Shown here one piece after another: positions 2,432 through 54,289 of a stretch of 64,000 nt of DNA. Made by a program: the position numbers and the translations under genes. Within the stretch, counting starts at the first letter, position 1; each line of letters starts with the position of its first letter. The DNA is from Bacteroidota bacterium (GTDB taxonomy: Bacteria > Bacteroidota > Ignavibacteria > UBA10030 > SZUA-254): the NCBI GenBank assembly GCA_020056225.1, contig JAGVIE010000048.1:1-64000 (forward strand). The letters run 5' to 3'. The notes below the pieces were generated by a model. It did no database searches. It was not told the DNA's origin and was given only the letters and a program-made list of their open reading frames with translations.

Positions 2432-4068
2432 GGATTGAATTTAGGAATGTTCGGGTTATTAGATGCGATCTCTATGCAGTGTGAAGTTATTTTTCGTGTA
2501 TTTGCCGGATCGACGATTCCATCTATCCATAATCGTGCGGCAGCATACAACGGGTCAAGCTCGCTGTTGTAACGATTGGCAATCTCGCTCAACATTTTAT
2601 CCTGATCTTCTTTGGAGATTTTCATCCCCTTCGCCGACATCTGCTGAACCTTGATACTCAGGAGTGTTTCACTCGCCTGCTTTCCACCCATCACGGCAAT
2701 TTGTGCTGTGGGCCAGGTGAAAATGAAACGCGGGTCATAAGATTTGCCGCACATCGCATAATTGCCGGCGCCGTAACTATTTCCAATTATAAATGTAATC
2801 TTCGGAACAACACTGTTGGCAACTGCATTCACCATCTTTGCGCCGTCTTTGATGATGCCGCCTTGCTCTGCACGTGTTCCCACCATAAAACCAGTAACAT
2901 CCTGCAGAAAAACGAGAGGTATATTTTTTTGATTGCAGTTTAAAATGAAGCGTGTTGCTTTATCGGCGCTGTCGCTGTAAATTACACCACCGACCTGCAT
3001 CTCGCCCTTCTTCGTCTTCGTCACCGCCCTTTGGTTCGCAACAATGCCCACAGCCCAGCCATCAACTCTTGCATAAGCGGTGATGAGTGTTTTACCATAA
3101 CCGGCTTTATACTCATCTATTTCACCGGCATCAACTATTCGGGAAAGAATTTGATGCGTGTCGTAGGGTTTGGTACGATCATCGGGAATCAAGCCATAAA
3201 TTTCTTTCGGATCGAACGCCGGCGCCTTGGATGCGATCCGGTCGAACCCTGCTTTCGGCACTCTACCAAACTTGCCGACGAGACTTCTAATAGTTTCAAG
3301 ACAAACTTCATCGTTTGGCATTTTATAATCTGTAACCCCGCTGACTTCGCAGTGCATGGCTGCGCCGCCAAGCTCTTCGAGATCGGCATCTTCACCAATA
3401 GCAGCTTTGACAAGAAAAGGTCCGGCAAGGAAAACAGATCCGGTTTTATCGACAATCAATGCTTCATCACTCATGATCGGCAAGTACGCACCTCCCGCTA
3501 CACATGGTCCCATGATTGCGGCGATCTGGGGAATCCCCATTGAAGACATGACCGCATTGTTACGAAATATCCTGCCGAAATGTTCTTTATCGGGAAAGAT
3601 TTCACTTTGGAGCGGAAGGAAAACACCTGCCGAATCTACGAGGTAAACGATCGGCAGACGATTCTCCATCGATATCTCCTGTGCGCGGAGATTTTTCTTA
3701 CATGTTATCGGGAACCATGCCCCTGCTTTTACAGTCGCATCGTTTGCTACGATAACTACATCGCGATTATGAATTTTCCCGACGCCGAAGATCGTTCCGG
3801 AAGAAGGCGCGCCTCCGTATTCTTCATACATACCGTATGCACAAAAGAGTCCGACCTCAAGAAAATTACTTCCGGGATCTATAAGCTTTGCAATGCGCTC
3901 GCGTGCATGAAGTTTCCCGCGTGTATGAAGTTTTTCTATCGCCTCTTTGCCGCCTCCTAACTTGACGACATCGGCTTTTGCGTTTAATACTCGCAGGATG
4001 TTTTTCAAACTATCTTCATATCGATTATAGGCGGCTTCTTTTTTTACTTCTATTCCGATATTAGACAT
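2413..4068 (-). CDS. Acyl-CoA carboxylase carboxyltransferase (beta) subunit, methylcrotonyl-CoA carboxylase type
   Basis: This 551-residue carboxyltransferase transfers CO2 from carboxybiotin to an acyl-CoA. It has two crotonase-fold halves. The N half carries DSAGVFLPLQ, FPDKEHFGRIF and GPCVAGGAYLPIMSDE, and the C half carries GNSYGAGNYAMCG and ARLWIDGIVDP. The FPDxxHFGRIF segment and the overall length fit the methylcrotonyl-CoA carboxylase beta (MccB) branch better than propionyl-CoA carboxylase, but the substrate is an inference. No biotin carboxylase or biotin-carrier gene is in the window, so its alpha subunit must be encoded elsewhere. Its ATG overlaps the stop of the upstream fusion gene by one base (TAATG), which indicates translational coupling. 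It ends a long minus-strand run containing acyl-CoA dehydrogenases and meaB. Confidence 0.88.
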   Translation of the reverse strand: MSNIGIEVKKEAAYNRYEDSLKNILRVLNAKADVVKLGGGKEAIEKLHTRGKLHARERIAKLIDPGSNFLEVGLFCAYGMYEEYGGAPSSGTIFGVGKIHNRDVVIVANDATVKAGAWFPITCKKNLRAQEISMENRLPIVYLVDSAGVFLPLQSEIFPDKEHFGRIFRNNAVMSSMGIPQIAAIMGPCVAGGAYLPIMSDEALIVDKTGSVFLAGPFLVKAAIGEDADLEELGGAAMHCEVSGVTDYKMPNDEVCLETIRSLVGKFGRVPKAGFDRIASKAPAFDPKEIYGLIPDDRTKPYDTHQILSRIVDAGEIDEYKAGYGKTLITAYARVDGWAVGIVANQRAVTKTKKGEMQVGGVIYSDSADKATRFILNCNQKNIPLVFLQDVTGFMVGTRAEQGGIIKDGAKMVNAVANSVVPKITFIIGNSYGAGNYAMCGKSYDPRFIFTWPTAQIAVMGGKQASETLLSIKVQQMSAKGMKISKEDQDKMLSEIANRYNSELDPLYAAARLWIDGIVDPANTRKITSHCIEIASNNPNIPKFNPGVIQV

Positions 4069-7000
4069 TATTTAATTCCTATTCTGCTTAATGCGATTCG
4101 ATGAGATAAGATTTGCATTTTTTCATTCGGAAGCCCGAGTTGTTGAGTGCTATCGACATATTTCTGTGCTTCATCGATATATCCTGCGTTGAAATAATTT
4201 TCGGCTATTTCAATTAACAGCAGTATTTCCGATTCGGGATTAGTATTATTCGCGTCTGCTTGACGGAGCCGTAATACACTTTTGTATATCTCTGCCGCCT
4301 CGGCACACTTGCCTGATATCCGGAGCGATCCGCCTAACATAATAATAAATCGTTCTTCCTTGCCTCCGGTCAAAGCTATGCAATGTCTGTAGAGAGCAAT
4401 TACATCCTGCAGGTCGAGGTTGTTAACGACCGAAATGTGCTGAGCATAATGATCGAGCAACGCCTCCGCGTATGCATTTACAACTTCAACATCATCGGGG
4501 AATAATTCAGCGACCCTGCGTAATACATCCAACCGCTCATCTTTCAATCCAAGGTCGCGCGTTATTCTTGCCATCATACCTAACGCGTCCTCACTCCGGG
4601 GATTAAGTTGCAGGCACTTTTTCAGTGTCGAGTACGCAAACCATAAATCCCCGATGTTTGGGTTGTTACGATAACGAGCGATGTTGAGATAATTCATCAG
4701 CGATATTCCGTATTGCTTCTCGTACATGGAAATCCAGAGATTTTTATCCTGCACAATCATTCTTTCATCGAGACTGTCGACTATTTGTACTGCCGAGTGT
4801 GTGAACAATCCTATCGGCGCCATGAATTCGAGAAGTGGTTTCTTCTCCGAATTGATTTCACCGCCCATGAAGGCGAAGATGTTATTTCTGGAAGATACGA
4901 CCTGTGTGGAAAGGAAAGTCGGGATATCATAAATATGAATACGTGCTAAATCATCTTCTATCGCCTTTATTCTTATCTTTTGCTCCATCATCCCAAAATC
5001 CGCCGTTATTGGTTTAACCGACGCCAGGATAATGACATCGGCATCGGAAGCGCGCCAGATAGAAACATACGGGAATGCACGGCATATCGTATTCACGATC
5101 AGTTTAAACGTCCGGTCGTCAAGATCGTAAGTATGGAACCATTGTGTCAGGATACCGCCGGGGCGTAGTCTTTTTTTGCTCAGTTCAAAAAATTCGGACG
5201 AGAAAAGATTTCCTATGCCCGCGATCCAGGGATTCGACGGCTCGCTGATAATAAAATCGTATTGCTTCGGCGTGATTTTTAAATATGTTATTGCATCATC
5301 GAGATGCAGTTTTAATCGGGGATTTTTAATGACATCATTGTTCCATTTTCCAAAATAATTAACCGCCTCAACAACTTCCGATGAAATCTCCACGCAATCC
5401 AGTGAGCGTAGCGGATGCACCAATGCCGATCCGCATGTGACTCCGCTCCCGAGACCAATTACTAAAGCATCACCCGTATCGGGAAGCATCATCAGCGGAA
5501 CTTGCGCGAGCAATATTTGTGTCTGAAGGTCTCCCTCGGTACTCGCGTCAGCTTTCCCGTTTATGATCAGCGTTCTTTGAGTTGAAGTTTCGGTCGGGAT
5601 CTCTATGACCGCAACATTAGCGTTTACACCTTCCTTGTATGACAGGATTGTTCTATTCTCTTCATTATTAGATTTAAATTCCTCGAAAGTAGCCGGAACC
5701 TCCAAGGAAAATCTTCTGAATACACCTGAAATGGACATATGTTTATTCCATTCTGGAAATTGCATCCAGTATCCGACTTCCAATAGTATGAAAATTGCGA
5801 CAAAGATAATTCTCCATCGGACAGAAAATTTTTTATCAAGAAAGAATATCGTTAAGCCAAGCAATCCGTTGAACAGGACTCCGATTTCTATTGTTTGCTT
5901 GACGCCCAATAACGGAATGAGAACCAAACCTGTCAGCAATGCTCCGACAACTGTTCCGATCGTGTTAATGGAAAAAACACTGCCTACTGTTTTCCCCAAA
6001 ATTCTGATATCATTGCTCGCTATGCGGCTGACAACCGGAAGCGACATACCTGAGAAAGTTGTCGGAACGATCATGATGATCAAACAAAAAAGAAATTCAA
6101 TAGCGAGGAAGATCGGAAAATTCCCGGGCTTATTGGAAATGGTTAATGATAATTGTAATAGGTAGTAAGGCAGACGTTCATAAAGCGGGAGAGTGAGAAT
6201 CATCGATACTGCCGTCGCAAACTGACAGAATCCCAAAAACACGAAGAGATTCTTTATTTTAGAAATGATCCGCGATACGATCCAACTGCCGAGTGTTATC
6301 CCGCTGATAAACGCAATCAGCATAACCGAAAATGAATATGTCGAAGAACCGAGAATGTTCGAGAGTAACCGGATCCAGGTAAGTTCATAAAGCATTGCGA
6401 TAAATCCCGAAAAAGCCGCAACGGCAATCGCTACTTTAATAATTCGGTGTGAAAATTTTTGTGTGGTGTCTTGTTTTACATCATCGTTGCGTATTTTTTC
6501 CTGTGCGGGAATCCTCACCCACTTAGCGAGTAATAATGCCGCACCGCCAATTAGCAGGTTCATTGAAGCCGCGCTCCACACCGTACCGTCCAATGATAAA
6601 TATCGTATAAGAAAGAATCCTGCAAGCGCAGTGCCGATAATAGCGCCGAGACTATTGATATAATAAAGTGTAGCAACATCCTTGCCGGCATCGGCAATAT
6701 TCTTTGTCAGATATTTTGTGAGCACGGGCAGTGTTCCGCCCATAAAGAAAGTCGGTAGTATGAGCGTGATAAAGCTCAGCAAAAATTTTAATACAAGAAG
6801 ACTGACCTGACCCGCTGATGCATTCAATGATTCTGCCATACCGATGAAAGTCGTTTCAGCCGCACTTATAAAAAACGGATAGGCAAAACAATATATTCCT
6901 ATAGCGATCTCAAGAATACCGTAGAGCCGGAGCTGGTTCACGGCTTTATCTGCGTATCTACCCCAATAAAACGACCCGAATGCGAGTCCTCCCATAAAGG

Positions 7001-7145
7001 TAGCGAGTACAATCATGTGTGAATAGGCGGTACTGCCGATAAAGAGCGCAAGATATTTTGACCAGGCGACTTCGTAGATCAGCCCGCAGATACCTGAGAG
7101 AATGAACAGTACTACAATAAAAAATTTGAGCACGGATGGTTTCAT
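4068..7145 (-). CDS. Fused MFS-type membrane domain / spermidine-synthase-like domain / TPR protein
   Basis: The product has 1025 residues in three parts. Residues 1-460 form 12-14 hydrophobic helices in two similar halves: GICGLIYEVAWSKYL near 18 and FIAMLYELTWIRLL near 248 are the paired signatures of the membrane part of 'fused MFS/spermidine synthase' proteins. Residues 500-710 are a class I methyltransferase/spermidine-synthase fold with VIGLGSGVTCG (562-572), LDCVEIS (582-588), DDAITYL and ISEPSNPW (633-640). Residues 800-1025 contain TPR-like helices. The catalytic aspartate expected in true aminopropyltransferases is replaced by the EPSNPW context, so polyamine synthesis is doubtful. 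The family is common in Bacteroidota and Chlorobiota but its role is unknown. It sits 21 bases after an acyl-CoA dehydrogenase and couples to the carboxylase. Confidence 0.8.
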   Translation of the reverse strand: MKPSVLKFFIVVLFILSGICGLIYEVAWSKYLALFIGSTAYSHMIVLATFMGGLAFGSFYWGRYADKAVNQLRLYGILEIAIGIYCFAYPFFISAAETTFIGMAESLNASAGQVSLLVLKFLLSFITLILPTFFMGGTLPVLTKYLTKNIADAGKDVATLYYINSLGAIIGTALAGFFLIRYLSLDGTVWSAASMNLLIGGAALLLAKWVRIPAQEKIRNDDVKQDTTQKFSHRIIKVAIAVAAFSGFIAMLYELTWIRLLSNILGSSTYSFSVMLIAFISGITLGSWIVSRIISKIKNLFVFLGFCQFATAVSMILTLPLYERLPYYLLQLSLTISNKPGNFPIFLAIEFLFCLIIMIVPTTFSGMSLPVVSRIASNDIRILGKTVGSVFSINTIGTVVGALLTGLVLIPLLGVKQTIEIGVLFNGLLGLTIFFLDKKFSVRWRIIFVAIFILLEVGYWMQFPEWNKHMSISGVFRRFSLEVPATFEEFKSNNEENRTILSYKEGVNANVAVIEIPTETSTQRTLIINGKADASTEGDLQTQILLAQVPLMMLPDTGDALVIGLGSGVTCGSALVHPLRSLDCVEISSEVVEAVNYFGKWNNDVIKNPRLKLHLDDAITYLKITPKQYDFIISEPSNPWIAGIGNLFSSEFFELSKKRLRPGGILTQWFHTYDLDDRTFKLIVNTICRAFPYVSIWRASDADVIILASVKPITADFGMMEQKIRIKAIEDDLARIHIYDIPTFLSTQVVSSRNNIFAFMGGEINSEKKPLLEFMAPIGLFTHSAVQIVDSLDERMIVQDKNLWISMYEKQYGISLMNYLNIARYRNNPNIGDLWFAYSTLKKCLQLNPRSEDALGMMARITRDLGLKDERLDVLRRVAELFPDDVEVVNAYAEALLDHYAQHISVVNNLDLQDVIALYRHCIALTGGKEERFIIMLGGSLRISGKCAEAAEIYKSVLRLRQADANNTNPESEILLLIEIAENYFNAGYIDEAQKYVDSTQQLGLPNEKMQILSHRIALSRIGIK

Positions 7146-21313: not shown

Positions 21314-22579
21314 ATGAAAACCATCTCAACAGATCATCGTGAAACCGCAATCGTTGTAGGCATCATCAATAAGCACGCGCAACGTAATCAGGTAGCTGAG
21401 TATCTCAACGAACTCGTCCTCCTTACCGACACTGCGGGAGCTGATGTACTTTATAAAATTACGCAGGAACGTGAACGTATAGATTCAGCGACTTATATAG
21501 GCAGCGGGAAGGTACAAGAAATAGGTGATATTGTTGAGAGAGAAAAAATCGATCTTGTAATTTTCGATGACGATCTCTCTCCGGTTCAAGTACGCAATCT
21601 TGAGAAGATCATCAAGTGTAAAATTCTTGACCGGAGCGGATTGATACTCGATATTTTTGCGTCACGCGCCAAAACGAAAGAAGCGATGACGCAGGTTGAG
21701 CTTGCCCAGCTTCAATATCTTCTCCCGCGGTTAACGCGCCAATGGACGCACTTATCGAAACAATACGGGGGTGTGGGCACAAAAGGTCCGGGCGAGCAAC
21801 AAATTGAATCCGACCGGCGTGCTATTCGTTCACGCATCAGTCATTTGAAGAATAAACTTGAGCGGATCGATAAAGAACGTGAGATCCAGCGAAAGGGACG
21901 AAAAGAACATACACGTGTGGCTATGGTCGGATACACAAACGCGGGAAAATCAACACTCTTAAAATCGCTTTCGGGCGCGGATGTATTAATTGAAGACAGG
22001 CTCTTTGCAACGCTCGATACGACAGTACGTATGGTTCCGCTTTCAGCATCACAAAAGATGCTTCTTTCAGACACAGTTGGATTCATCAGAAAACTTCCGT
22101 CTCATCTGATCGCTTCTTTCAAAAGCACACTTGCAGAAGCAACTGAGGCTGATATTCTACTGCATGTTGTAGATATTAGTCACCCAAAATTCCATGAGCA
22201 GATCGCCGTTGTCAATGATACGCTCGAAGAACTTAATACAACCGGAAAGCCGATGATTTATGTTTTCAATAAAATCGATAAACTCAAAGATAGATCAATA
22301 ATACAAGAACTCACTTCCGAATATCCTGTATCGGTATTTATCTCAGCGGAACGAGGAATAAATATTTCCGGTCTTGAGAACAAATTACTCGAGATGATCG
22401 ATGTTGGAACTCGTGAATACAACTTGACCATCAAACAATCAGATTATCGGACTATTGCTAAGCTACACGAAATTGCCGAAATTATTTCTCAGCAATATGA
22501 AGATAATTCGATCAATATTAAATTTAAGATCAATCAAAAAAATTCAGACCGATTGAAGAAATTATTGGCAACAAGATAG
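21314..22579 (+). CDS. hflX: GTPase HflX
   Basis: A 421-residue ribosome-associated GTPase that splits or rescues stalled 70S ribosomes. The N-terminal HflX domain (1-190) includes ATYIGSGKVQEI, LSPVQVRNLEK and the signature YGGVGTKGPGEQQIESDRR. The G domain has P-loop GYTNAGKST near 211, FATLDTT, DTVGFIRKLP and NKID. Length and motif order are normal. It starts one base after the BatA-like gene. Confidence 0.95.
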   Translation: MKTISTDHRETAIVVGIINKHAQRNQVAEYLNELVLLTDTAGADVLYKITQERERIDSATYIGSGKVQEIGDIVEREKIDLVIFDDDLSPVQVRNLEKIIKCKILDRSGLILDIFASRAKTKEAMTQVELAQLQYLLPRLTRQWTHLSKQYGGVGTKGPGEQQIESDRRAIRSRISHLKNKLERIDKEREIQRKGRKEHTRVAMVGYTNAGKSTLLKSLSGADVLIEDRLFATLDTTVRMVPLSASQKMLLSDTVGFIRKLPSHLIASFKSTLAEATEADILLHVVDISHPKFHEQIAVVNDTLEELNTTGKPMIYVFNKIDKLKDRSIIQELTSEYPVSVFISAERGINISGLENKLLEMIDVGTREYNLTIKQSDYRTIAKLHEIAEIISQQYEDNSINIKFKINQKNSDRLKKLLATR

Positions 22580-22624
22580 ATAAAACAATAACGGAAAATT
22601 ATTCAAAGCAACATCAGATTAATC

Positions 22625-23407
22625 ATGATAAAGACAGCGATAGAAGCGGCGAAGGAAGCAGGAAGGTTTCTTAAACAAAACATCGGCAAAGTAAGAGACA
22701 TTCAAAGGAAGGACGGACAGGAAAAGAATCTTGTCACCGAGATCGACAAGCGCTCCGAGGAAATAATAATCGGCATCATCAAACAGCATTACCCGGCGCA
22801 TGATATTCTTGCCGAAGAGAGCGGGCTGAAAAGCAGTTCTGCTTCCGAATACAGATGGATTATCGATCCGCTTGATGGAACGACGAACTTCACACACGCA
22901 CTGCCTGTATTCTGCGTTTCCATCGGTGTAGAACGTAAGGGAAAGATTATTGCGGGAGTTATTTATGACCCGAATTTCGATGAACTTTTCACTGCGGAAA
23001 AAGGAAACGGCGCGCTTCTTAACGGCAAACGCATGAAGGTATCCCGAACCGAATCACTGAACACAAGCCTGCTTGTTACCGGCTTCCCTTATAACATCAC
23101 CGAAAATCCGGATCATGCTGTAGAACATTTTTATAATTTTCTTATGAGAGCACAGGCAGTCAGGCGGATGGGGTCCGCGGCAATAGATATGGCGTATGTA
23201 GCGGCGGGAAGATATGACGGTTTTTGGGAAGTCGCTCTTAATCCCTGGGATATGGCGGCAGGCACCTTGCTGATAGAAGAAGCCGGCGGCACACTCACAG
23301 ATTTTTCCGGCAACCCTTTAAGTGTGTATCATAAACAGATTGTAGCCAGTAACGGAAAAATTCAGAAAGAAATGCTGGAAGTGCTGCATTCAACGAGAAT
23401 TAAATAG
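22625..23407 (+). CDS. Inositol-1-monophosphatase family phosphatase (SuhB-like)
   Basis: A 260-residue Mg-dependent phosphatase. Metal-binding residues are seen in LAEESGL (Glu), WIIDPLDGTTNF (Asp-Asp) and the C-terminal NPWDMAAGTLLIEEAGG (Asp). The family hydrolyses inositol phosphate and, in bacteria, related phosphates. SuhB also acts in rRNA antitermination, but that role cannot be read here. Normal length, no signal peptide. It lies 45 bases after hflX. Confidence 0.92.
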   Translation: MIKTAIEAAKEAGRFLKQNIGKVRDIQRKDGQEKNLVTEIDKRSEEIIIGIIKQHYPAHDILAEESGLKSSSASEYRWIIDPLDGTTNFTHALPVFCVSIGVERKGKIIAGVIYDPNFDELFTAEKGNGALLNGKRMKVSRTESLNTSLLVTGFPYNITENPDHAVEHFYNFLMRAQAVRRMGSAAIDMAYVAAGRYDGFWEVALNPWDMAAGTLLIEEAGGTLTDFSGNPLSVYHKQIVASNGKIQKEMLEVLHSTRIK

Positions 23408-23435
23408 CAAGAGATCAGTTCACTTTAAGTGCAAA

Positions 23436-23455
23436 GAGGGACTTCCCTGTCCCTC
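23436..23455. terminator. Hairpin between convergent genes
   Basis: GAGGGAC (23436-23442) pairs perfectly with GTCCCTC (23449-23455) around a six-base loop. No long T-run follows on the plus strand. On the minus strand it is followed by TTTGC. It lies between the convergent phosphatase and receiver genes, so a bidirectional terminator is plausible. Confidence 0.45.
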
Positions 23456-23508
23456 TCGCATCTATGGTCCTCCAATTATCTACTTCTAACTTCGCCTCAT
23501 AAAAAATA

Positions 23509-23880
23509 TTATCCGGCTTGCCTCATTTTCAGACAATTCATAGCCTCCGGAATTTTATTGAACTCATATGCTTTATCAAAATGAAAATCTGCCCCTGCAT
23601 CTAAATATCTTCTCCGGTATTGGGGGAACGAGTGATTAGTTAACATAATCAAAAGCGGTATGAAACTAACACGCTTCAAATTTTTTATTAAATCGATTCC
23701 GTTTATACCAAGCAACTCACTATCTAGAATAAGAACGTCAGGGTTGTTTTTCTTGATAGATTCGAATATCATATTTGTATTATTGATAGTATCTACAACC
23801 TGAACATCATCGATGTTGTTGAACATCGCTGCAAGACGCTCACAGATTAAAGCCGACCTATCCGCTATGACAATTTTCAT
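23509..23880 (-). CDS. Single-domain response regulator
   Basis: A 123-residue receiver domain. The acidic pocket is reduced to Asp7 (IVIADRS, with the usual second Asp replaced by Arg). Phospho-acceptor Asp53 (LILDSELLG), Thr81 and Lys103 remain. It has no output domain. Spacing from the NarL-type gene upstream is 226 bases, and two TTTGTnACAAA palindromes lie in that gap, so it probably has its own promoter. It may accept phosphate from the nearby NarX-like kinase, but this is inferred from position only. Confidence 0.8.
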   Translation of the reverse strand: MKIVIADRSALICERLAAMFNNIDDVQVVDTINNTNMIFESIKKNNPDVLILDSELLGINGIDLIKNLKRVSFIPLLIMLTNHSFPQYRRRYLDAGADFHFDKAYEFNKIPEAMNCLKMRQAG

Positions 23881-24025
23881 ATTATTATTTCCGTTTCATT
23901 TATTTTATGGGCTCGGATAGCAGCCCTAATCCACATAAAATGCTACCCAAGCCCTGTGATAATGCTTATGCACCTAAATAATAATGAATGATAATGACTT
24001 TAGGTAGAGCATTTTTTGTGATTTT

Positions 24026-24071
24026 TTTGTAACAAATCCTATATTTTTCTTGTCACAGTTTTTGTTACAAA
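24026..24071. promoter_or_regulatory. Pair of TTTGTnACAAA palindromes (candidate operators)
   Basis: TTTGTAACAAA (24026-24036) and TTTGTTACAAA (24061-24071) are each palindromic around one central base and are exact reverse complements of each other. Their centres are 35 bases apart. They lie in the gap between the NarL-type regulator and the downstream lone receiver gene, about 150-190 bases before the receiver's start. They could be binding sites for a dimeric regulator, or arms of a hairpin with a 24-base loop. Confidence 0.4.
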
Positions 24072-24106
24072 GACAGAAGAGGCTAAATTGATGTAAAAAA
24101 CTCGAT

Positions 24107-24757
24107 TTAGGCTGGCGGATGGGTTGGTTCGACTAGATTGTTCCTTATGGCGTATTGGGTGAGTTCAGCGTTTGACTTCATATTCATCTTCTCCAGAAGA
24201 CGTGTACGATAAGTATGAATGGTGTTCAAACTCAAAGAGAGTGCTTCGGAAATTTCCATAATGGATTTCCCTTGGGCGATCATGTATAAGATTTGGTACT
24301 CACGGTCGGATAATGTTTTATGCGGCGGTTGATTTGAATCGATTAATATTTCATCGGCAATTTTATCTGCGAGAGACTGAGTAATATACTTCCCTCCGTT
24401 AATAATTCTTCGTATCGCATTTACTAATTCCAGCGGTGCGCTTTCTTTGGTCAGATAACCTGAAGCGCCGGCTCTCAATGCACGAACGCCGAATCGATCT
24501 TCCGGATGCATGCTTAAAATGAGCACAGGAAGTTTCGGGCGATGCCTCCTAAGCTCTTTCAGAACCTCAAGCCCGCTAAGCTCGGGCATCGATAAATCCA
24601 TCAGCACGATGCTCAGCTCATTTTCGGCAACGAAGCTCAGAACTTCGCGGCCGTTTTTAGCTTCTCCTACAACCTTAAAATCAATTTCATCTCGCAATGT
24701 TTTCTTTAATCCTTCACGAATCATTGGATGGTCGTCTGCTATAAGAATTTTTATCAT
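24107..24757 (-). CDS. NarL/FixJ-family response regulator
   Basis: A 216-residue regulator. The receiver has Asp8/Asp9, phospho-acceptor Asp54 (VLMDLSMPEL), Ser in ILSMHP and Lys in YLTKES. The C-terminal LuxR-type HTH (about 148-205) contains LSDREYQILYMIAQGKS and SLSLNTIHTYRTRLLEKM. Its ATG overlaps the stop of the histidine kinase by four bases (ATGA), which makes the two a cognate pair. It is the last gene of the CPPxCD/7TM/kinase cluster. Confidence 0.94.
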   Translation of the reverse strand: MIKILIADDHPMIREGLKKTLRDEIDFKVVGEAKNGREVLSFVAENELSIVLMDLSMPELSGLEVLKELRRHRPKLPVLILSMHPEDRFGVRALRAGASGYLTKESAPLELVNAIRRIINGGKYITQSLADKIADEILIDSNQPPHKTLSDREYQILYMIAQGKSIMEISEALSLSLNTIHTYRTRLLEKMNMKSNAELTQYAIRNNLVEPTHPPA

Positions 24758-25662
24758 TCCGATATCTGCCTATTAAGATCCCACTGGATATTGCTGTCAG
24801 TGTGCGGGGTTACTGTTGATGAGGAAATTAGCGGTACTTTAACTGTTACTGTTGTACCTTTTCCGTTTTCACCATTGATTGTGAATTCTCCTCCGATCAA
24901 TAATACGCGTTCACGCATACCCAGGATTCCAAACGATCTCTCTTGTGAAGATTTTTGATCTGTTATACCCTTGCCATTGTCGGCTACTTGTAACATCAAT
25001 TTATGGTTTTTCTGCTCGAACGTTACGTCAACTGCCGCCGCGCCCGAATGGCGGGCAACGTTGGTTAATGTTTCCTGAAGTATGCGAAATAATGCTGTCG
25101 AACTATCCTTGTCAAGATCGAGATCCTCAACGTTTGTATTGAATGTGCATTTTATTCCCAACCGGTTCTGAAACCTCTGGATTTCCCATTCAATTGCATC
25201 CCGCAAACCAAGCTCATCTAGTATTTCAGGGCGTAATTCGGTTGCGATAGTTCTAACCGTTTTGATTGTCGTATCTATAACATCAGACATTGACTGGATA
25301 TCCTGAATTGCCTCTTTGTAAGTATTCTGAAAAGAAAATTGCTCGACCTTCTTCTGGAATAACGCAAGGTCCATTTTCAATACAGTTAGCAATTGACCCA
25401 ATTCGTCGTGGATTTCACGGGCGATGCTAGTGCGCTCTTCTTCGCGCACGGATTGGATATGTGCGGCAAGCTGGCGGATTTTATCATAAGATTCCTTTAG
25501 CTGACGCTCGCCTTCTTCAAGTATCCTTACTTTTTCGCGCTGCGAGTATATAAACCGCCGCTGGCTATATAATATACTGCCAAATAAAATACTACCTAAT
25601 ACTACAATAGCCGTAGTACCTACGATTAACGCTAACCAGATTTCTGAGCTTGATGCCGGCAC
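24754..25662 (-). CDS. NarX-like sensor histidine kinase with one N-terminal TM helix
   Basis: A 302-residue kinase starting at GTG, supported by AAGGA five bases upstream. One TM helix (about 9-31) leads into a coiled coil (41-75). The dimerisation domain of the HisKA_3 type carries His85 in IAREIHDELGQ. The ATPase domain shows ILQETLTNVARHSGA (N box), VADNGKGI (G1) and SFGILGMRERV (F/G2). There is no periplasmic or PAS sensor domain, so sensing must come from the membrane or from a partner. Its first codons overlap the upstream seven-TM gene by 31 bases, and its stop overlaps the regulator by four. This is strong evidence that the 7TM protein, kinase and regulator work together. Confidence 0.9.
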   Translation of the reverse strand: MPASSSEIWLALIVGTTAIVVLGSILFGSILYSQRRFIYSQREKVRILEEGERQLKESYDKIRQLAAHIQSVREEERTSIAREIHDELGQLLTVLKMDLALFQKKVEQFSFQNTYKEAIQDIQSMSDVIDTTIKTVRTIATELRPEILDELGLRDAIEWEIQRFQNRLGIKCTFNTNVEDLDLDKDSSTALFRILQETLTNVARHSGAAAVDVTFEQKNHKLMLQVADNGKGITDQKSSQERSFGILGMRERVLLIGGEFTINGENGKGTTVTVKVPLISSSTVTPHTDSNIQWDLNRQISE

Positions 25663-26276
25663 AAAAATCCTTCCGCATAGATTAGATATGTAACAATATT
25701 AAGAATGGTATTAATGATAAATACAGCTTTGGCGAATTGAAAATCTTGAAAGAGGAGCATATTAAGAAGAGAGAATATTATTAAAGTAGTGACATTGTAG
25801 AATAAAACACCCGTCGCTACCCAAAATCGATATTCTCTCGTCAAGGGATAAACACCCTCTTTACTCAATTCCAATAATGCAAACGCCGAAATTCCGATCA
25901 GAAATATTTTGAATACTGACATCCCATAAGTGTTCGCCTGAGTGATTGGCTGAAAGAAAAGAATATTCACTATCATAAAAGCTGTTATGAAGAGAATACT
26001 CCATAGATAAATTTTCTTTAAACGAATATTTTTCTGCCACCGTGAAAATATCACTACCAAAAACAGGTATTCAATTATCGGGAAAACGTGCGTTATCCAT
26101 AATGTGTTCCTTGAAATACGCAGTAATATTAAAAAGTTCACTATCATCTCGAAAACAAACGATGATACGAGATACCAGACAAGTATCTTCATTTCACCGG
26201 ATAATTTTCTGTAATTAAAGAATCCGAAAAATAAGGGAATCCCGACTGATAGGGTACTAACAAAATACAATAACAT
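25632..26276 (-). CDS. Seven-TM membrane protein, likely sensor partner of the adjacent kinase
   Basis: A 214-residue integral membrane protein I cannot assign to a named family. Hydrophobic helices lie at roughly 2-20, 31-54, 59-79, 89-108, 118-137, 148-172 and 179-202, giving seven TM segments with short loops. It has no extra domain. The gene overlaps the histidine kinase by 31 bases, and the CPPxCD small-protein gene ends 11 bases upstream. The kinase has no sensor domain of its own. I infer that this protein is the sensing or signal-relay unit, by analogy with other 7TM-kinase pairs. Direct evidence is positional only. Confidence 0.65.
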   Translation of the reverse strand: MLLYFVSTLSVGIPLFFGFFNYRKLSGEMKILVWYLVSSFVFEMIVNFLILLRISRNTLWITHVFPIIEYLFLVVIFSRWQKNIRLKKIYLWSILFITAFMIVNILFFQPITQANTYGMSVFKIFLIGISAFALLELSKEGVYPLTREYRFWVATGVLFYNVTTLIIFSLLNMLLFQDFQFAKAVFIINTILNIVTYLIYAEGFLCRHQAQKSG

Positions 26277-26287
26277 TTAGATTCAAT

Positions 26288-26602
26288 CTAACTATTCAAA
26301 GCATTTGGAGCATCACAAATCGGAGGACAAAATGGACTAAACTCAAGCATAACACCACCAGTAATATCCTTGCCACCCATATCCACACCAACCAAAACAA
26401 TCGCTGGGTTTCCTTTATCGTCCTGTGCGTGGTAATATCTCATTGCAACACAACCCGGTTGATCAAGAAGTTTCTGGACGTAATCTTTCCAGAATAGCCC
26501 GCCTTTGATTGCATCTTTTGCAGCTTGAACTCTGTATTTATTTGTTAACCTGCTCGCTTCATCAAGCGATATTATCTGGTTGTTTTTTTGTGGTAATGGC
26601 AT
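26288..26602 (-). CDS. Small CPPxCD-motif protein, copy A (cytoplasmic form)
   Basis: A 104-residue protein of unknown function with SD GGAGAA before its ATG. It has no signal peptide or TM. About two thirds of the residues are identical to the protein encoded at 26708-27136. Shared blocks are DAIKGGLFWK, YVQKLLDQPxC, IVLVGVD, DITxG and the C-terminal SPxCPPxCD. Three cysteines are common to both. The paired CPPxC looks like a metal or redox site, but this is inference. Similar short proteins are, from memory, widespread as uncharacterised proteins in Bacteroidota. It is 11 bases from the 7TM gene and probably heads the 7TM-kinase-regulator transcript. Confidence 0.7.
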   Translation of the reverse strand: MPLPQKNNQIISLDEASRLTNKYRVQAAKDAIKGGLFWKDYVQKLLDQPGCVAMRYYHAQDDKGNPAIVLVGVDMGGKDITGGVMLEFSPFCPPICDAPNALNS

Positions 26603-26653
26603 AGATTCTCCATAATTAATATTTTTGATTGTGATATATTGATAATTAATTAA

Positions 26654-26689
26654 GCGGGATACAAATTGCAGAACTCGTATGTATCCCGC
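26654..26689 (-). terminator. Hairpin between the two CPPxCD genes
   Basis: GCGGGATAC (26654-26662) and GTATCCCGC (26681-26689) form a perfect nine-base stem with an 18-base loop. On the minus strand it is followed by TTAATTAATT. It lies 19 bases after the stop of copy B, so it may end that transcript or reduce read-through into copy A. Confidence 0.5.
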
Positions 26690-26707
26690 AAGAACTTTTA
26701 ATAGTTG

Positions 26708-27136
26708 CTAATTACCAATAGCAACTTCTACATCGGATGTTAAAGAATTTGTGTTATCACAAAATGGTGGACACCACGGACTCAATTCAAGTATAATACC
26801 ATCTGTAATATCACTTCCATTTGAATCCACTCCAACAAGTACTATTGTTGGCTTGCCGGCATCACCAATAGCATAGTAATACCTCATCGCGGCACAATCC
26901 GGTTGATCAAGAAGTTTCTGGACGTACTCTTTCCAGAACAATCCTCCTTTTATTGCATCTGGTCCTGCCTGCGCTCGATAGGCATGAGTCATTTTACTTG
27001 CTTCTATAAGTCCAATCAAATGATTGCTCTTTGGTGGTAGAGAAGAATTTTCTTTTGCACTGATTAATTGTAGTAACCCAACAACAACTACAATTACTAC
27101 TATCACAAGAAGTGCAACTTTATGAATGCGTTTCAT
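26708..27136 (-). CDS. Small CPPxCD-motif protein, copy B (membrane-anchored or secreted form)
   Basis: A 142-residue paralogue of the 104-residue protein downstream, with a perfect AAGGAG ribosome site. It differs by an N-terminal extension: KRIHK followed by a hydrophobic stretch (about 6-24), which would anchor it or be a signal sequence, and a C-terminal tail after CPPFCDN. The shared core places the CPPxCD end outside the cytoplasm in this copy but inside in the other. This arrangement is suggestive of a ligand and sensor or donor and acceptor pair. Function unknown. A hairpin separates it from copy A. Confidence 0.65.
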   Translation of the reverse strand: MKRIHKVALLVIVVIVVVVGLLQLISAKENSSLPPKSNHLIGLIEASKMTHAYRAQAGPDAIKGGLFWKEYVQKLLDQPDCAAMRYYYAIGDAGKPTIVLVGVDSNGSDITDGIILELSPWCPPFCDNTNSLTSDVEVAIGN

Positions 27137-27284
27137 AAGATAACTCCTTAAGTATATATTAATAGATTAGTGAATTAGTAATGCCCCCTAATGATATTAT
27201 CTCTTTTGTGATTCGAAATTAAGAAAAACAATTCTTTTCATCCTTTAGCAATATAGATGAATCTAATGAAAATAAATCTACAAT

Positions 27285-28622
27285 TCAAACACACCCATGC
27301 CAGGGGAAAACACCTTTTTCATTTATCATTGCGCGAATAAGCGGGGATGGAGCGCATGGCTCAGTTGCCACGCAAATCGCCTTTTCCAAACGATTAGCGG
27401 CGGTTTCAAGGATTTCTTTCTTGTCCGTCTGTATGATTGCCAAAGTATCGTCCGCTTTCACGCTGTCACCCACCTTCTTCATCAATCTTATTCCCGCTTT
27501 AGGGTCGATGATGTCGTCTACTTTCATCCTGCCCGCTCCAAGCATGATACCGATGAAACCAACTTCCAGCGCATCGATATTATGGATATAACCCTTAGAA
27601 GTACTCTTCACTCCAATAGTATATTTACTCTTTGGATATTTTTCCGGATTTGTAATGAATGAAATATCGCCCCCCTGCCTGCGCACCAACTCGTTGAATT
27701 TATCCATCGCCTTCCCGGCTTGAAGAATATCCTTGCACTTGGATATTCCTTCTTCAATGGTTCCGGCTTTACCGCCTAACATCACCATCGCTCCGCCCAG
27801 CACGTAGGTTACTTCCATGAGGTCGGGGACATTTTTCCCCTGCATACATTCAATGCACTCGACAACCTCAAGCCAATTTCCAACCGCGTAGCCGAGCGGC
27901 TGGCTCATATCGGTGAGAAAGCCGATTGTCTTTTTACCAAATTTATTCCCGACCGCGATAAGTGTTTTTGCCAGCTCAATAGCATCCGCTTCCGATTGCA
28001 TGAAAGCACCACGCCCCGTTTTTACATCGAGCACAAGAGCATCGATTCCTTCAGCAAGTTTCTTGCTCATTATGCTTCCTGAAATAAGCGGAATACTCTC
28101 CACCGTTCCGGTAACATCGCGAAGAGCGTACATTTTTTTATCTGCAGGCGCGATCTCGGCGGTTTGTCCGATCATCACTATACCAATTTCAGCAATAACT
28201 TTTTTGTATTCATCGAGTGAAAGATCGGTTCTAAAACCGGGTATCGATTCCAGTTTATCGAGCGTTCCGCCCGTATGACCGAGTCCCCTGCCCGATATCA
28301 TCGGTACAGGCACTCCGCACGCTGCAACCATCGGCGCAAGTATTAATGAGACTTTATCGCCAACACCGCCTGTTGAATGTTTATCCACTTTGATTCCGGG
28401 AATTTCTGATAAATCGACGACTACCCCTGAATTGAGCATGATATCAGTGAAGGTTGTAGTTTCTTCAAAGTCCATTTTTTGAAAATAGACAGCCATTAAA
28501 AAAGCCGACATCTGGTAATCGGCTACTTTATCGTTTATATAACCTTGGATAAAAAATTCAATCTCTGTGCGATTCAGTTTATCGCCGCTTCGTTTTTTTC
28601 GTATGATTTCAGTAGGGTTCAT
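27285..28622 (-). CDS. Pyrimidine-nucleoside (thymidine) phosphorylase
   Basis: A 445-residue enzyme that splits thymidine, uridine or deoxyuridine with phosphate, in nucleoside salvage. Signatures are VDKHSTGGVGDKVSLILAP (phosphate site), the family pattern SGRGLGHTGGTLDKLE, and DVKTGRGAFM. The C-terminal alpha/beta domain (350-445) ends normally. Distinguishing DeoA from the broader-specificity Pdp form is not possible by eye. It follows the nudix gene by 56 bases. Confidence 0.92.
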   Translation of the reverse strand: MNPTEIIRKKRSGDKLNRTEIEFFIQGYINDKVADYQMSAFLMAVYFQKMDFEETTTFTDIMLNSGVVVDLSEIPGIKVDKHSTGGVGDKVSLILAPMVAACGVPVPMISGRGLGHTGGTLDKLESIPGFRTDLSLDEYKKVIAEIGIVMIGQTAEIAPADKKMYALRDVTGTVESIPLISGSIMSKKLAEGIDALVLDVKTGRGAFMQSEADAIELAKTLIAVGNKFGKKTIGFLTDMSQPLGYAVGNWLEVVECIECMQGKNVPDLMEVTYVLGGAMVMLGGKAGTIEEGISKCKDILQAGKAMDKFNELVRRQGGDISFITNPEKYPKSKYTIGVKSTSKGYIHNIDALEVGFIGIMLGAGRMKVDDIIDPKAGIRLMKKVGDSVKADDTLAIIQTDKKEILETAANRLEKAICVATEPCAPSPLIRAMINEKGVFPWHGCV

Positions 28623-28678
28623 AAATTGATATTATAACCGGAATATGTGAGAGGAATAGATTCATTAATATAATTTAT

Positions 28679-29224
28679 TTAAAATTCTTTCTTCAAGATT
28701 CTTGAGCCGAGCATTATGCCGCAAATTGTTTTAGCATCTATTATCTCCCGGCGTTCGATCATTCGGATGGTTTTGGCTAACGGAATAATTTTCACCGTCA
28801 TCGTTTCCTCACCTTCTTCAAGCTGTCTGCCATTGGGTGCTTCATACAAATTTTCCGCCATGAATATGTGGAGGACTTCACTGCAAAATCCCGGCGATGT
28901 GTAGATTGATGTCAGTTTCTTCCAATGCTTTGCACGGTAGCCGGTCTCTTCCTCTAACTCTCTTCGGGCACATGCCAACGGCAGTTCTCCATCTTCCAAT
29001 TTACCTGCCGGTAATTCCCAAATAAATTTATCGAACGGATAACGATGCTGGTTAATCAGTATAATTCTTTCATCGGGAAAAACGGCAAGCACTACGGCGC
29101 CGCCCGGATGTTCGGCAACTTCCCTAATCGTGCGGTTACCGGATAGATATTCCACTTCATCGACGATTGTAGTGAATACTCTCCCCTTATATACTTTATT
29201 TCTTTTTATCAGTTTAAGCTTCAT
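28679..29224 (-). CDS. Nudix hydrolase, ADP-ribose pyrophosphatase-like
   Basis: I start at the ATG at 29224 (MKLKLIKRNKVYKGRVF). The longer frame from 29338 would add 38 atypical residues inside mscS. The 181-residue protein has the complete nudix box GX5EX7REUXEEXGU at residues 74-96 (GKLEDGE...ARRELEEETGY), preceded by WELPAGK. The layout (VYKGRVF, EVAEHPGGAVVLAV, LINQHRYPF) is that of ADP-ribose/ADP-sugar pyrophosphatases. It overlaps the mscS stop by 11 bases. Confidence 0.9.
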   Translation of the reverse strand: MKLKLIKRNKVYKGRVFTTIVDEVEYLSGNRTIREVAEHPGGAVVLAVFPDERIILINQHRYPFDKFIWELPAGKLEDGELPLACARRELEEETGYRAKHWKKLTSIYTSPGFCSEVLHIFMAENLYEAPNGRQLEEGEETMTVKIIPLAKTIRMIERREIIDAKTICGIMLGSRILKKEF

Positions 29225-44008: not shown

Positions 44009-47000
44009 TTATTTCGTTATACGCTCGATACTGATCGAACATTGTTCGCCGTTAATGTCCCATTCGGCAGTGTATCCTCCTTCGACAAGAATTTCGATCA
44101 TGCCAGTTGCAAGCGTTTCGTTCTTCACATATTCCCCAAGTGAACTTAATGCTCTCGATAATTTTTCCTTTGCATCATATGAGATACGAATTCTATCGGT
44201 AACATCAAAACCTGCATCCTTCCTCATATTCTGAATGCGGCTTATAAATTCACGCGCGAATCCTTCGTCAATCAATTCCTGTGACAGTTCTGTATCGAGT
44301 GCGACTGTAACCGTGTTATCCGATTCGACTACCCATCCTTTTAACTCTTCATGCAGTATTTCAACATCCTCGCGAAGGATGACAGTTCCTGAGCCGTTCA
44401 ACTGGATGGTAAGACTTCCTCTTGTCTCGATCTCTTTGATTTCCTTTGATGTAAAATTTCTGATCGCGGCGGCAACAGGCTGAACCGACTTTCCATATTT
44501 TGGACCGAGCGATTTAAAATTAGGTTTTACCGTTTTATGAACGATGCCAGAATCATCATCTACATATTCAAGCTTTTTCACGTTTATTTCATCGAGGATA
44601 ACATCTTCCATCCGCGCAATCTCTTCACGGTCGCGTTCATTGAAAACCGGAACTATGATGCGCTTCAACGGCTGGCGTACTTTAAGGTTAGATTTGTTCC
44701 TTATCGCGCGAACGAGTGATACAATTCTCTGCGCTTTCTCCATTCTCGATTCAAGCGCATGATCGATTGCTTTTTCATCGGCTTCAGGTATCATTGCCAG
44801 ATGTACGGATTCGTCGGCTTCCCGCTTCGCGACTGAATTGAGATTCGAATAAATCGATTCAGCAAGAAACGGCGCGAATGGCGCCATCAATTTTGATATG
44901 ACGATTACGCACTCGTACAATGTTTGATAGGCGGCAATCTTATCGGCGCCTTTTTCATTTTTCCAGAACCGGCGTCTGTTTCTTCTTACGTACCAATTCG
45001 ATAACTGGTCGATAGTAAAATTGCTGATTGCACGCGCGGCTTCGGTTACATTATAATTATCCATCGCTGATTCATAGGTCTTGATCAAAGAATTTAATAC
45101 CGAAATAATCCAGCGATCTATCTCGGGCCGTTTGTCAACCGGTACATGTGTTTCACTAAAAACAAATTTATCGATATTCGCATATAAGCTGAAGAAGGCA
45201 TAAGTGTTCAACAGCGTTCCGAGGAATTTCCTTTGAACTTCAACAAGACCTTCTTCATCGAAAAGCGTAGGCCGCCACGGCGGACTCGTTGCCACTAAAT
45301 ACCATCTGGATGTATCCGCGCCGTACTTCTCGATGATACCGAATGGGTCAACGGTGTTTCCCTTCGACTTCGACATTTTCTGTCCGTCCTTATCGAGGAT
45401 AAGATCGTTGACAAGGATATTCTTGTATGCCGGTTTATCGAACAAAAACGTGCTGATAGAATGCAACGAATAAAACCATCCCCGTGTTTGATCGACACCT
45501 TCACAAATGAAATCCGCCGGATGCTGTTCGCCGGAATCAATCAACTCTTTATTCTCGAACGGATAATGCCATTGCGCAAACGGCATCGCGCCCGAATCGA
45601 ACCACACATCGATGAGTTCGGGTGTGCGTTTCATCTCGCCGCCGCATGAGCAATCGAATGTTACAGCATCAACATGCGGTTTGTGAAGATCGAGCGGCTC
45701 CTGAATTCCTTTCCCTTGTTTATACTCTGCAACACTTCCGACACATTTTAGCTTGCCGCATTTTTCACAAACCCAGATCGGGAGCGGCGTGCCCCAGAAA
45801 CGGTCGCGAGAGAGCGACCAATCTTTATTATCTTCCAGCCAATTTCCAAAACGACCCTCACCGACTTCGGGCGGAAACCAATTGATTGTTTTGTTCAGCT
45901 CAACCATCCGGGCGGCGTACTTCGTTGTAGCGATATACCACGACTCACGCGCATAGTACAACAACGGCATCTTGCACCGCCAGCAATGTGGGTAACTGTG
46001 CGTGATCATTTCCTTTTTGTAAAGGATATGACGTTCCTTTAGATTTCGGATGATATCCGGATCGGCATCTTTTACAAACTTACCGTAAAACTCGGTAACT
46101 TCGGGACCGAATTCTCCGCTTTTGTTTACCGGATGGATTGTCGGGAGACCATACTTCTTCGAAACTTGATAATCGTCTTCACCGTATGCCGGTGCGATGT
46201 GAACAATTCCGGAGCCATCTACAGTTGTAACAAAATCTCCTTCAATTACATACCACGCCCGTTCTTTTGCAGGATGATAACTGTAAAGACGCTCGTATTC
46301 TTTACCGGTCAACGCCTTACCTTTAAATTTCTCAATCACCGCATATTCACCATCAAGCACACCAAGTCGCGCCTCGGCAAGAATTAATTTTTCACCTTTG
46401 TGTTCAACCTTCACATAATCGACATCGGGATGAATTGCAAGAGCAACATTCGATATCAACGTCCATGGCGTTGTAGTCCAGACGAGGAAATAGGTATTCT
46501 CCTCTCCTTTTGCTTTCATCTTGATGTAAATACTCGGGTCTTTCACATCTTCGTAACCGAGGGAAACTTCGTGCGATGACAATGGAGTTTCACATCTGGG
46601 ACAATACGGTTGAATCTTGTATCCTTTATAAATCAAACCCTTATCGAAGTACTGCTTCAACGCCCACCAGATTGATTCGATATATTCATTCGTGAATGTA
46701 ATATACGGATCATCGAGATTGACCCAATAACCCATCCGCTCTGTCATTCTTTCCCAATCGGCCTTGTATTTCCAAACTGACTTCCTGCATTCGTCATTGA
46801 ACTTCGAAACACCGTAACGAACGATATCTTCTTTGTGCTTGAAGCCGAGCATTTTTTCGACTTCAATCTCGACCGGCAAGCCGTGTGTATCCCATCCCGC
46901 CTTACGATGTACCTGAAATCCTCTCATCGTTTTATACCGGCAGACTAAATCTTTCAACGTGCGGCTCATAACGTGATGGATCCCCGGACGTCCGTTTGCG

Positions 47001-47161
47001 GTCGGCGGACCTTCGTAGAATGTAAAGCCCGGTTTACCGGCGCGGAGGGAAATACTTTTCTCGAAAATTTTGTTCTCTTTCCAGAACTTTAGAATTTCCA
47101 GCTCGAGCTGAGAGTAATTTATTTTATCTGTGAGTTCTTTGAACACTATATTATTATTCAC
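44009..47161 (-). CDS. ileS: Isoleucyl-tRNA synthetase (long, eukaryote-like type)
   Basis: A 1050-residue class Ia synthetase that charges tRNA-Ile and edits valine. It starts at GTG, overlapping the DUF2905 stop as GTGA. The HIGH-type motif is TANGRPGIHH (54-63) and the KMSKS loop is KMSKSKGN. Cysteine pairs CPRC, CWRC and CEKC occur through the insert. The editing domain contains WTTTPWTL and DGSGIVHIAPAYGEDDY. Length and the GIHH and PYCPRC contexts place it with the type 2 (eukaryote/archaea-like, often mupirocin-insensitive) branch. Resistance itself is not shown. Confidence 0.96.
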   Translation of the reverse strand: MNNNIVFKELTDKINYSQLELEILKFWKENKIFEKSISLRAGKPGFTFYEGPPTANGRPGIHHVMSRTLKDLVCRYKTMRGFQVHRKAGWDTHGLPVEIEVEKMLGFKHKEDIVRYGVSKFNDECRKSVWKYKADWERMTERMGYWVNLDDPYITFTNEYIESIWWALKQYFDKGLIYKGYKIQPYCPRCETPLSSHEVSLGYEDVKDPSIYIKMKAKGEENTYFLVWTTTPWTLISNVALAIHPDVDYVKVEHKGEKLILAEARLGVLDGEYAVIEKFKGKALTGKEYERLYSYHPAKERAWYVIEGDFVTTVDGSGIVHIAPAYGEDDYQVSKKYGLPTIHPVNKSGEFGPEVTEFYGKFVKDADPDIIRNLKERHILYKKEMITHSYPHCWRCKMPLLYYARESWYIATTKYAARMVELNKTINWFPPEVGEGRFGNWLEDNKDWSLSRDRFWGTPLPIWVCEKCGKLKCVGSVAEYKQGKGIQEPLDLHKPHVDAVTFDCSCGGEMKRTPELIDVWFDSGAMPFAQWHYPFENKELIDSGEQHPADFICEGVDQTRGWFYSLHSISTFLFDKPAYKNILVNDLILDKDGQKMSKSKGNTVDPFGIIEKYGADTSRWYLVATSPPWRPTLFDEEGLVEVQRKFLGTLLNTYAFFSLYANIDKFVFSETHVPVDKRPEIDRWIISVLNSLIKTYESAMDNYNVTEAARAISNFTIDQLSNWYVRRNRRRFWKNEKGADKIAAYQTLYECVIVISKLMAPFAPFLAESIYSNLNSVAKREADESVHLAMIPEADEKAIDHALESRMEKAQRIVSLVRAIRNKSNLKVRQPLKRIIVPVFNERDREEIARMEDVILDEINVKKLEYVDDDSGIVHKTVKPNFKSLGPKYGKSVQPVAAAIRNFTSKEIKEIETRGSLTIQLNGSGTVILREDVEILHEELKGWVVESDNTVTVALDTELSQELIDEGFAREFISRIQNMRKDAGFDVTDRIRISYDAKEKLSRALSSLGEYVKNETLATGMIEILVEGGYTAEWDINGEQCSISIERITK

Positions 47162-54221: not shown

Positions 54222-54289
54222 CCTCATGAACATTGCATTTGCTCTCGTTGTTTCGTAATTTTAAGTACAGAAACGGAGAAGACAGTCCA

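Follow-up and report, generated by a model that had tools for sequence, protein, structure and literature searches.

Contig JAGVIE010000048.1 of a Bacteroidota bacterium (assembly GCA_020056225.1; Ignavibacteria, UBA10030, SZUA-254) contains a tight group of genes for two small paralogous proteins (A and B), a protein with seven transmembrane (TM) helices (7TM), a histidine kinase and a NarL-type response regulator. Do these genes form one sensory system and, if so, what do the small proteins contribute to it? The window analysed here is the whole stretch of 64,000 nucleotides (positions 1 to 64,000 of the contig), and its features are collected in Table 1. A preliminary description, made from the letters alone, had proposed a candidate new sensory system at this place. 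We find that the small protein, the 7TM protein, the kinase and usually the regulator form a genuine sensory gene set of Bacteroidota that has had no name so far. In agreement with that proposal, their order (small protein first, then 7TM, kinase and regulator) is met repeatedly across the phylum, and the small proteins share a C-terminal proline tail, often of the cysteine-proline kind.

Conservation of the gene set

The closest named record, a Bacteroidota metagenome-assembled genome (JASEHD010000004.1; locus L003), has the same gene order, including the receiver-only protein of Table 1. Among 60 related genomes, 27 contain both families, one (G033) the 7TM protein alone, none the small protein alone and 32 neither; the search with A gave 28 genomes, of which G036 was set aside because its match is an unrelated protein, and the 7TM profile also gave 28. 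In the first 69 loci, 69 of the 75 family open reading frames (ORFs) are followed on their own strand, at a distance of no more than 444 bases, by a 7TM gene. Of the other six, four are themselves located 3' of a 7TM gene; the remaining two lack one at the threshold used, the first sitting at a contig end and the second having a weaker 7TM match.

The small protein is present in 43 of 98 genomes of the window's order. A screen of the phylum gave matches in 13 of 198 genomes with a first small-protein profile, in 45 of 395 with a broader one and in 39 of 198 with the 7TM profile. The 7TM gene directly follows the small protein in 35 of 37 further loci, the exceptions being a contig edge and one doubtful match, and the 7TM matches adjoining small proteins in these loci have E values of 8e-25 or better; both family profiles behind this count and the later ones were rebuilt twice with matches from those loci.

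Together the loci yield 148 runs of 7TM genes. This set omits L064 (the unrelated protein of G036), L152 (a weak match in G041) and L247 (a doubtful 303-residue match in G192), and L003 and L065 appear to be the same place, of which only L065 was counted. A same-strand upstream ORF was found for 143 runs; two of the five runs without one lie within 160 bases of a contig end. Family matches were chosen first as the upstream ORF and then the longest ORF, and some of these picks are wrong. The median gap between the small-protein and 7TM genes is 10 bases (129 loci).

On the other side of the 7TM gene, 129 of the 148 runs have a protein matching the kinase profile (a one-TM kinase or a PAS protein) within 300 bases, overlapping in 94 cases. 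The small-protein family is thus rarely away from 7TM and kinase genes (69/75 ORFs and 35/37 loci; 129/148 runs), which bears out the grouping made in the preliminary description. HATPase_c was identified in 49, HisKA_3 in 35 and HisKA in 14 of 60 downstream proteins. In L040, L042, L043, L054 and L122 the partner consists of one TM helix and a PAS-like domain (164–184 residues) and has no catalytic domain, which suggests that the 7TM protein acts on whatever follows that helix.

An origin as a phage, plasmid, defence or RNA-family element was rejected, as phage and plasmid searches (with one small protein each), PADLOC, PHROGs and an Rfam scan of positions 22000-29000 gave no match. Searches of an open-access library turned up no account of this gene set, and no fusion of a 7TM and a tail protein in a single ORF occurs among the fetched loci. 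Two or three tandem 7TM genes per cassette are seen in L047, L060, L132, L134, L147, L241 and L296, which suggests hetero-oligomers or several inputs. Tandem small-protein domains within one ORF (244–296 residues) are seen in L048, L051, L120, L131 and L238.

The C-terminal proline tail

In many loci identified by the 7TM profile the upstream gene is recognised weakly or not at all by the small-protein profile. The products of such genes, too, tend to finish with a short proline tail (CPPGT, NPSPPRATN, LCPPLC, GRPPSLIY, YVPPVPGN and others). A tail pattern, defined as PP or CPxxxC (the spacer being one to three residues) within the final 30 residues, is present in 126 of the 143 upstream proteins. 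Among 905 control genes from the same loci PP is present in 38 and CPP or CPxxC in seven, so that at most 45 have a tail, and of 550 stretches of 30 residues taken from inside the upstream proteins themselves, 28 contain the pattern. It is found in 25 of the 37 upstream proteins that the family profile does not match and, counted by cluster, in 45 of 57 at 40% identity and 19 of 29 at 30% identity. Where the small protein has diverged so far that it is no longer recognised, its slot is still filled by a protein that carries this kind of tail. The tail thus outlives the rest of the protein, and this is the strongest new result of the analysis.

The cysteines of the tail

Residues C92, P93 and C96 are invariant in 65 aligned copies of the small protein (A3). 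The preliminary description had given the terminus as CPPxCD; CPPxC is indeed present in both A and B, but the D is not conserved across the family. Many Flavobacterium-like copies (genus label g84, the name being our assignment) lack one or both tail cysteines and keep PP (CPPYGDPNSPLQN, SPPF, VPPYGDPDSPLNP), and several Bacteroidia tails read CPPYGD, SPPF or VPPYGD or are free of cysteine. The 7TM protein has a cysteine of its own at its inner end (C206), which is conserved in 56 of 72 aligned proteins. The tail cysteine pair does not co-occur with it, the counts being 46/6/1/0 in the window's order (Fisher p = 1.0) and 9/25/18/24 in other Bacteroidota (p = 0.16). As many copies keep the prolines without the cysteines, an obligatory or general redox or metal role, as considered in the preliminary description, seems unlikely from the alignments. 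The cysteines may have a local role within the window's clade.

Localization of the tail protein

A crude hydropathy rule divides the 143 upstream proteins into 87 leaderless and 56 exported ones, the latter comprising 42 with a signal peptide or TM segment, 12 with a lipoprotein-like start and two weak cases. The leaderless count is an upper bound because the rule misses some likely signal peptides (as in L043). Several members are truly leaderless, since the frame leaves no room for a leader (107–110 open codons for 104-residue proteins). One leaderless and one exported copy accompany a single 7TM gene in the window, in L032 and in L041 and, by reading, in L238 and L239. In the last two, which are Flavobacterium-like, a leaderless copy with an SPPF tail lies upstream and a two-domain copy with a CPP tail downstream of the single 7TM gene, an arrangement that mirrors A and B. 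The downstream two-domain copy of L238 has a lipoprotein-like start.

Structure and topology

The model of A (predicted local distance difference test score, pLDDT, 90.8) consists of two helices, two long strands and the extended tail. It gave no significant Foldseek match to solved folds (best E value 0.24) and a best VIA Z-score of 2.5, which does not by itself make the fold novel. The 7TM model has seven helices (pLDDT 93.7, predicted template modelling score 0.89). VIA-align superposes about 200 of its 214 residues on solved structures with Z-scores of 13.8–11.8 for the 50 entries shown, although values below about 13 may reflect a mere common arrangement of helices. All of these 50 entries are of the G-protein-coupled receptor (GPCR) or rhodopsin type: designed GPCR-like proteins, several GPCR classes, microbial rhodopsins and LYCHOS. 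The microbial rhodopsin 8rso_A aligns over 197 residues with a Z-score of 12.8 and a root-mean-square deviation of 3.7. The Foldseek list likewise contains mostly GPCRs, with weak E values (0.06 at best). The 7TM protein is thus predicted to be a seven-helix bundle with a GPCR- or rhodopsin-like arrangement; in view of the tool's warning we claim likeness of fold and not common descent.

Loop charges (positive-inside rule) place the N-terminus outside and the C-terminus inside. The conserved polar or aromatic columns N58, H63, E69, W101, E109, N172, W186 and N189 are located in the outer half or the outer loops. The conserved columns of TM7 (186, 189, 190, 197, 200, 203 and 204, with 206 following the helix) do not include a lysine. 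As this residue is missing, a retinal-binding microbial rhodopsin was rejected as an identity for the 7TM protein.

A, B and the 7TM protein match no family in Pfam and NCBIfam, and their relatives (65 small proteins and 72 7TM proteins) give only weak matches of single members or of two members there. The small protein likewise has no sequence family in the PDB. The profile of the 72 7TM proteins finds no PDB sequence at E values up to 10, including those of solved GPCRs and rhodopsins. Transporter and membrane-enzyme families of Pfam and NCBIfam are not reached at the curated cut-offs, the matches among the 72 7TM proteins being weak and confined to single members. No known transporter thus emerges from Pfam, NCBIfam, PDB or fold comparison, and the unrelated transport function against which the preliminary description had cautioned is not seen. 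Membership in the 7TMR-DISM family (PF07695) was also rejected: one of 72 members matches, at an E value of 0.034, and the profile–profile probability, from a comparison with 14 of 28 fetched DISM stretches, is 0.7%, compared with 99.8% for two halves of the 7TM family.

A proposed split-sensor mechanism and its alternatives

We propose, with moderate confidence, that the cassette is a split-sensor two-component system with the 7TM protein as receptor subunit, a one-helix kinase and the tail protein as cognate co-sensor. The 7TM protein would reside in the inner membrane in an N-out, C-in orientation, with conserved polar residues mainly in its outer half, and would relay its state to the lone TM helix of the kinase encoded beside it, much as a sensory rhodopsin does to its transducer. 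The kinase would then phosphorylate the NarL-type regulator. The small protein would be a dedicated co-sensor, a compact domain that ends in a conserved proline tail (in this clade CPPxC). By docking on the 7TM protein, this tail would signal a stimulus, a binding partner or how abundant the small protein itself is. The analysis establishes that the genes are encoded together across the phylum and that the tail is shared, and it provides the predicted folds and topology and the domains of kinase and regulator; the 7TM–kinase contact, the tail–7TM contact and the direction of signalling are what we infer. The tail protein may also be a ligand of the pathway, as the preliminary description suggested.

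Several observations weigh against this proposal. The pattern is absent from 17 of the 143 upstream ORFs; four of these end in a related form (YDLGNLRP, YDLGGLKP, FDIGNLWP and NHGQIYP) and some (L125, L137) are probably wrong picks, but in L216, L224 and L140 a genuine family member lacks the tail. L149 has a 7TM gene and a regulator but no small protein. No kinase directly adjoins 18 of the 148 runs (one more lies at an edge); a second small protein intervenes in L041, L128, L238 and L239, and some of the runs have different neighbours. The mixture of leaderless (87) and exported (56) members means that one docking face cannot explain all of them. The fold likeness carries the weak Foldseek scores and the VIA limit mentioned above, and the loci are mutually related, so that the counts are not independent.

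The 7TM–kinase pair could instead sense an ordinary small ligand on its own. The small protein would then be made by the operon as output or feedback, perhaps as a buffering or envelope protein, and would contact neither partner. We regard this as rather unlikely. Many two-component operons encode a target, and the small protein is missing in L149 and, at the thresholds used, in L279 and L271. Against this, the same-strand upstream ORF is present in 143 of 148 runs and tailed in 126, it usually lies immediately 5' of the 7TM gene, and the tail is kept while the protein diverges. This co-encoding, together with a slot kept filled with the same kind of tail, weakens the output reading, which was also among those of the preliminary description. 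In a more far-reaching variant of the docking idea, which we consider unlikely, a folded protein would insert its C-terminal proline tail into the GPCR-fold 7TM protein and so switch the one-helix kinase, as in a GPCR-like pathway with a protein agonist. The tail would be the presented agonist on a carrier domain that has been exchanged repeatedly, and with paired leaderless and exported carriers a single receptor could monitor both faces of the membrane.

The remaining explanations assign another activity to one of the two proteins. A redox- or metal-sensing role of the CPPxC protein, with signalling via the 7TM protein, is suggested by the invariant residues of the 65 copies and by the inner-end cysteine of the 7TM family. 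Many Bacteroidia copies, however, keep the prolines but have lost one or both tail cysteines, and the cysteine pair of the tail does not co-occur with the 7TM cysteine; the idea finds no support among the relatives and appears improbable. We give an equally low probability to the tail protein being an exported peptide-like signal, or autoinducer, with the 7TM protein as its receptor. Signal-peptide, TM or lipoprotein-like starts in 56 of 143 proteins, the tandem 7TM genes and the tandem tail-protein domains would fit such a role, yet 87 proteins have no export signal and the main family conserves a folded domain that a bare signal does not need. Finally, it is very improbable that the 7TM protein sorts, modifies or exports the tail protein as an enzyme or transporter and that the kinase reports its load. 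A C-terminal motif common to otherwise dissimilar proteins does resemble a sorting tag, and the tandem 7TM genes are compatible with this role, but Pfam, NCBIfam and PDB sequences reveal no similarity to a known enzyme or transporter, the predicted fold is GPCR-like and, unlike in PEP-CTERM proteins, no hydrophobic segment follows the motif.

Relation to known systems

The kinase and regulator domains resemble those of NarX/UhpB-type (HisKA_3) systems with NarL-type regulators, but here the kinase is without a sensor domain and sensing would fall to two separate proteins whose families have not been described. In sensory rhodopsin–transducer pairs a separate seven-helix receptor is encoded with a membrane transducer. 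This layout and the predicted fold (8rso_A) are similar, whereas the 7TM protein of the cassette has no conserved TM7 lysine, the sequence search found no similarity, its partner is a kinase instead of a transducer, and a tail protein accompanies it almost everywhere. The 7TMR-DISM proteins also tie seven helices to a bacterial signalling output; there the two are fused and here they are split. In the RcsF–IgaA–Rcs system a small exported protein signals via a polytopic membrane protein to a kinase. The layout may be comparable, but many tail proteins here are leaderless. To our knowledge, few bacterial kinases have separate polytopic sensors.

We class the cassette as a variant of two-component systems and do not place it in any known family of 7TM receptors. 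Its significance lies in an unannotated receptor family, a partner of unmatched fold and a tail that outlives this partner, spread over the phylum Bacteroidota. The proposal would assign a role to many proteins that Pfam and NCBIfam leave unnamed, and would provide a bacterial case of a seven-helix receptor coupling to a kinase output, with a testable tail–receptor contact.

The LytS-type receptors BtsS and YpdA (PMC10653868 and PMC11109136) have seven helices, an external N-terminus and binding residues that face the periplasm, BtsS feeding a histidine kinase; their membrane domain is reported to have the S-component fold and is fused to the kinase. The N-out topology with seven helices is alike, whereas the 7TM protein of the cassette is split from its kinase. 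Closest in working are fused 7TM kinases such as BtsS (PMC10653868) and the sensory rhodopsin–transducer pairs.

Features of the window

Table 1. Genes and elements of the cassette in the window
Positions	Strand	Feature	Basis
26708-27136	minus	Copy B: tail-protein family member, 142 residues, exported or membrane-anchored	ORF and hydropathy
26759-26773		Coding bases of the B tail, CPPFC	
26654-26689	minus	Hairpin of 36 bases between B and A (10 bp stem, 16-base loop)	
26288-26602	minus	Copy A: leaderless tail-protein family member, 104 residues	ORF
26291-26329		Coding bases of the A C-terminal tail, CPPICDAPNALNS	
25632-26276	minus	7TM receptor-like protein, 214 residues	No Pfam/NCBIfam family; predicted GPCR/rhodopsin-like bundle
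24754-25662	minus	Histidine kinase, 302 residues, GTG start, one TM, without sensor domain	HisKA_3 and HATPase_c
24107-24757	minus	NarL-type response regulator, 216 residues	Response_reg and GerE
23509-23880	minus	Receiver-only response regulator, 123 residues	

The genes all lie where the preliminary description placed them, and the 11-base gap between A and the 7TM gene and the three cysteines common to A and B (in QPxC and CPPxC) are confirmed. The 7TM and kinase genes overlap by 31 bases, the kinase and regulator genes by 4 bases. A and B are 64% identical, and B has a single hydrophobic segment, which is N-terminal and begins at residue 7. Following its TM helix the kinase contains HisKA_3 (8.9e-14) and HATPase_c (9e-14) only, and its top NCBIfam kinase models, MctS and UhpB, are both far under their cut-offs. 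The regulator comprises Response_reg (3.7e-30) and GerE (9.7e-17). By domain content the HisKA_3 kinase and the NarL-type regulator are a candidate two-component pair.

The hairpin was not mentioned in the preliminary description; its stem is perfect and the element occurs at a single place in the genome. Its letters, including the loop, are identical at the matching place in L032, which belongs to another genus. The B–A intergenic stretch has a folding z-score of -2.98, and no long U-run follows the hairpin immediately. It could set the A:B ratio or be a candidate binding site for the regulator. This hairpin aside, no clear common motif was found 5' of the small-protein genes in seven upstream stretches.

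The receiver-only protein, which the preliminary description did not list, also accompanies the cassettes of close relatives (L003/L065, L033 and L034) and was seen in close relatives only; it may serve as a phosphate sink or as an additional output. Elsewhere in the window, the ORF list contains three frames (4068-7145, 44009-47161 and 54233-57457) of 1025–1074 residues, the size of resistance–nodulation–division (RND) efflux pumps.

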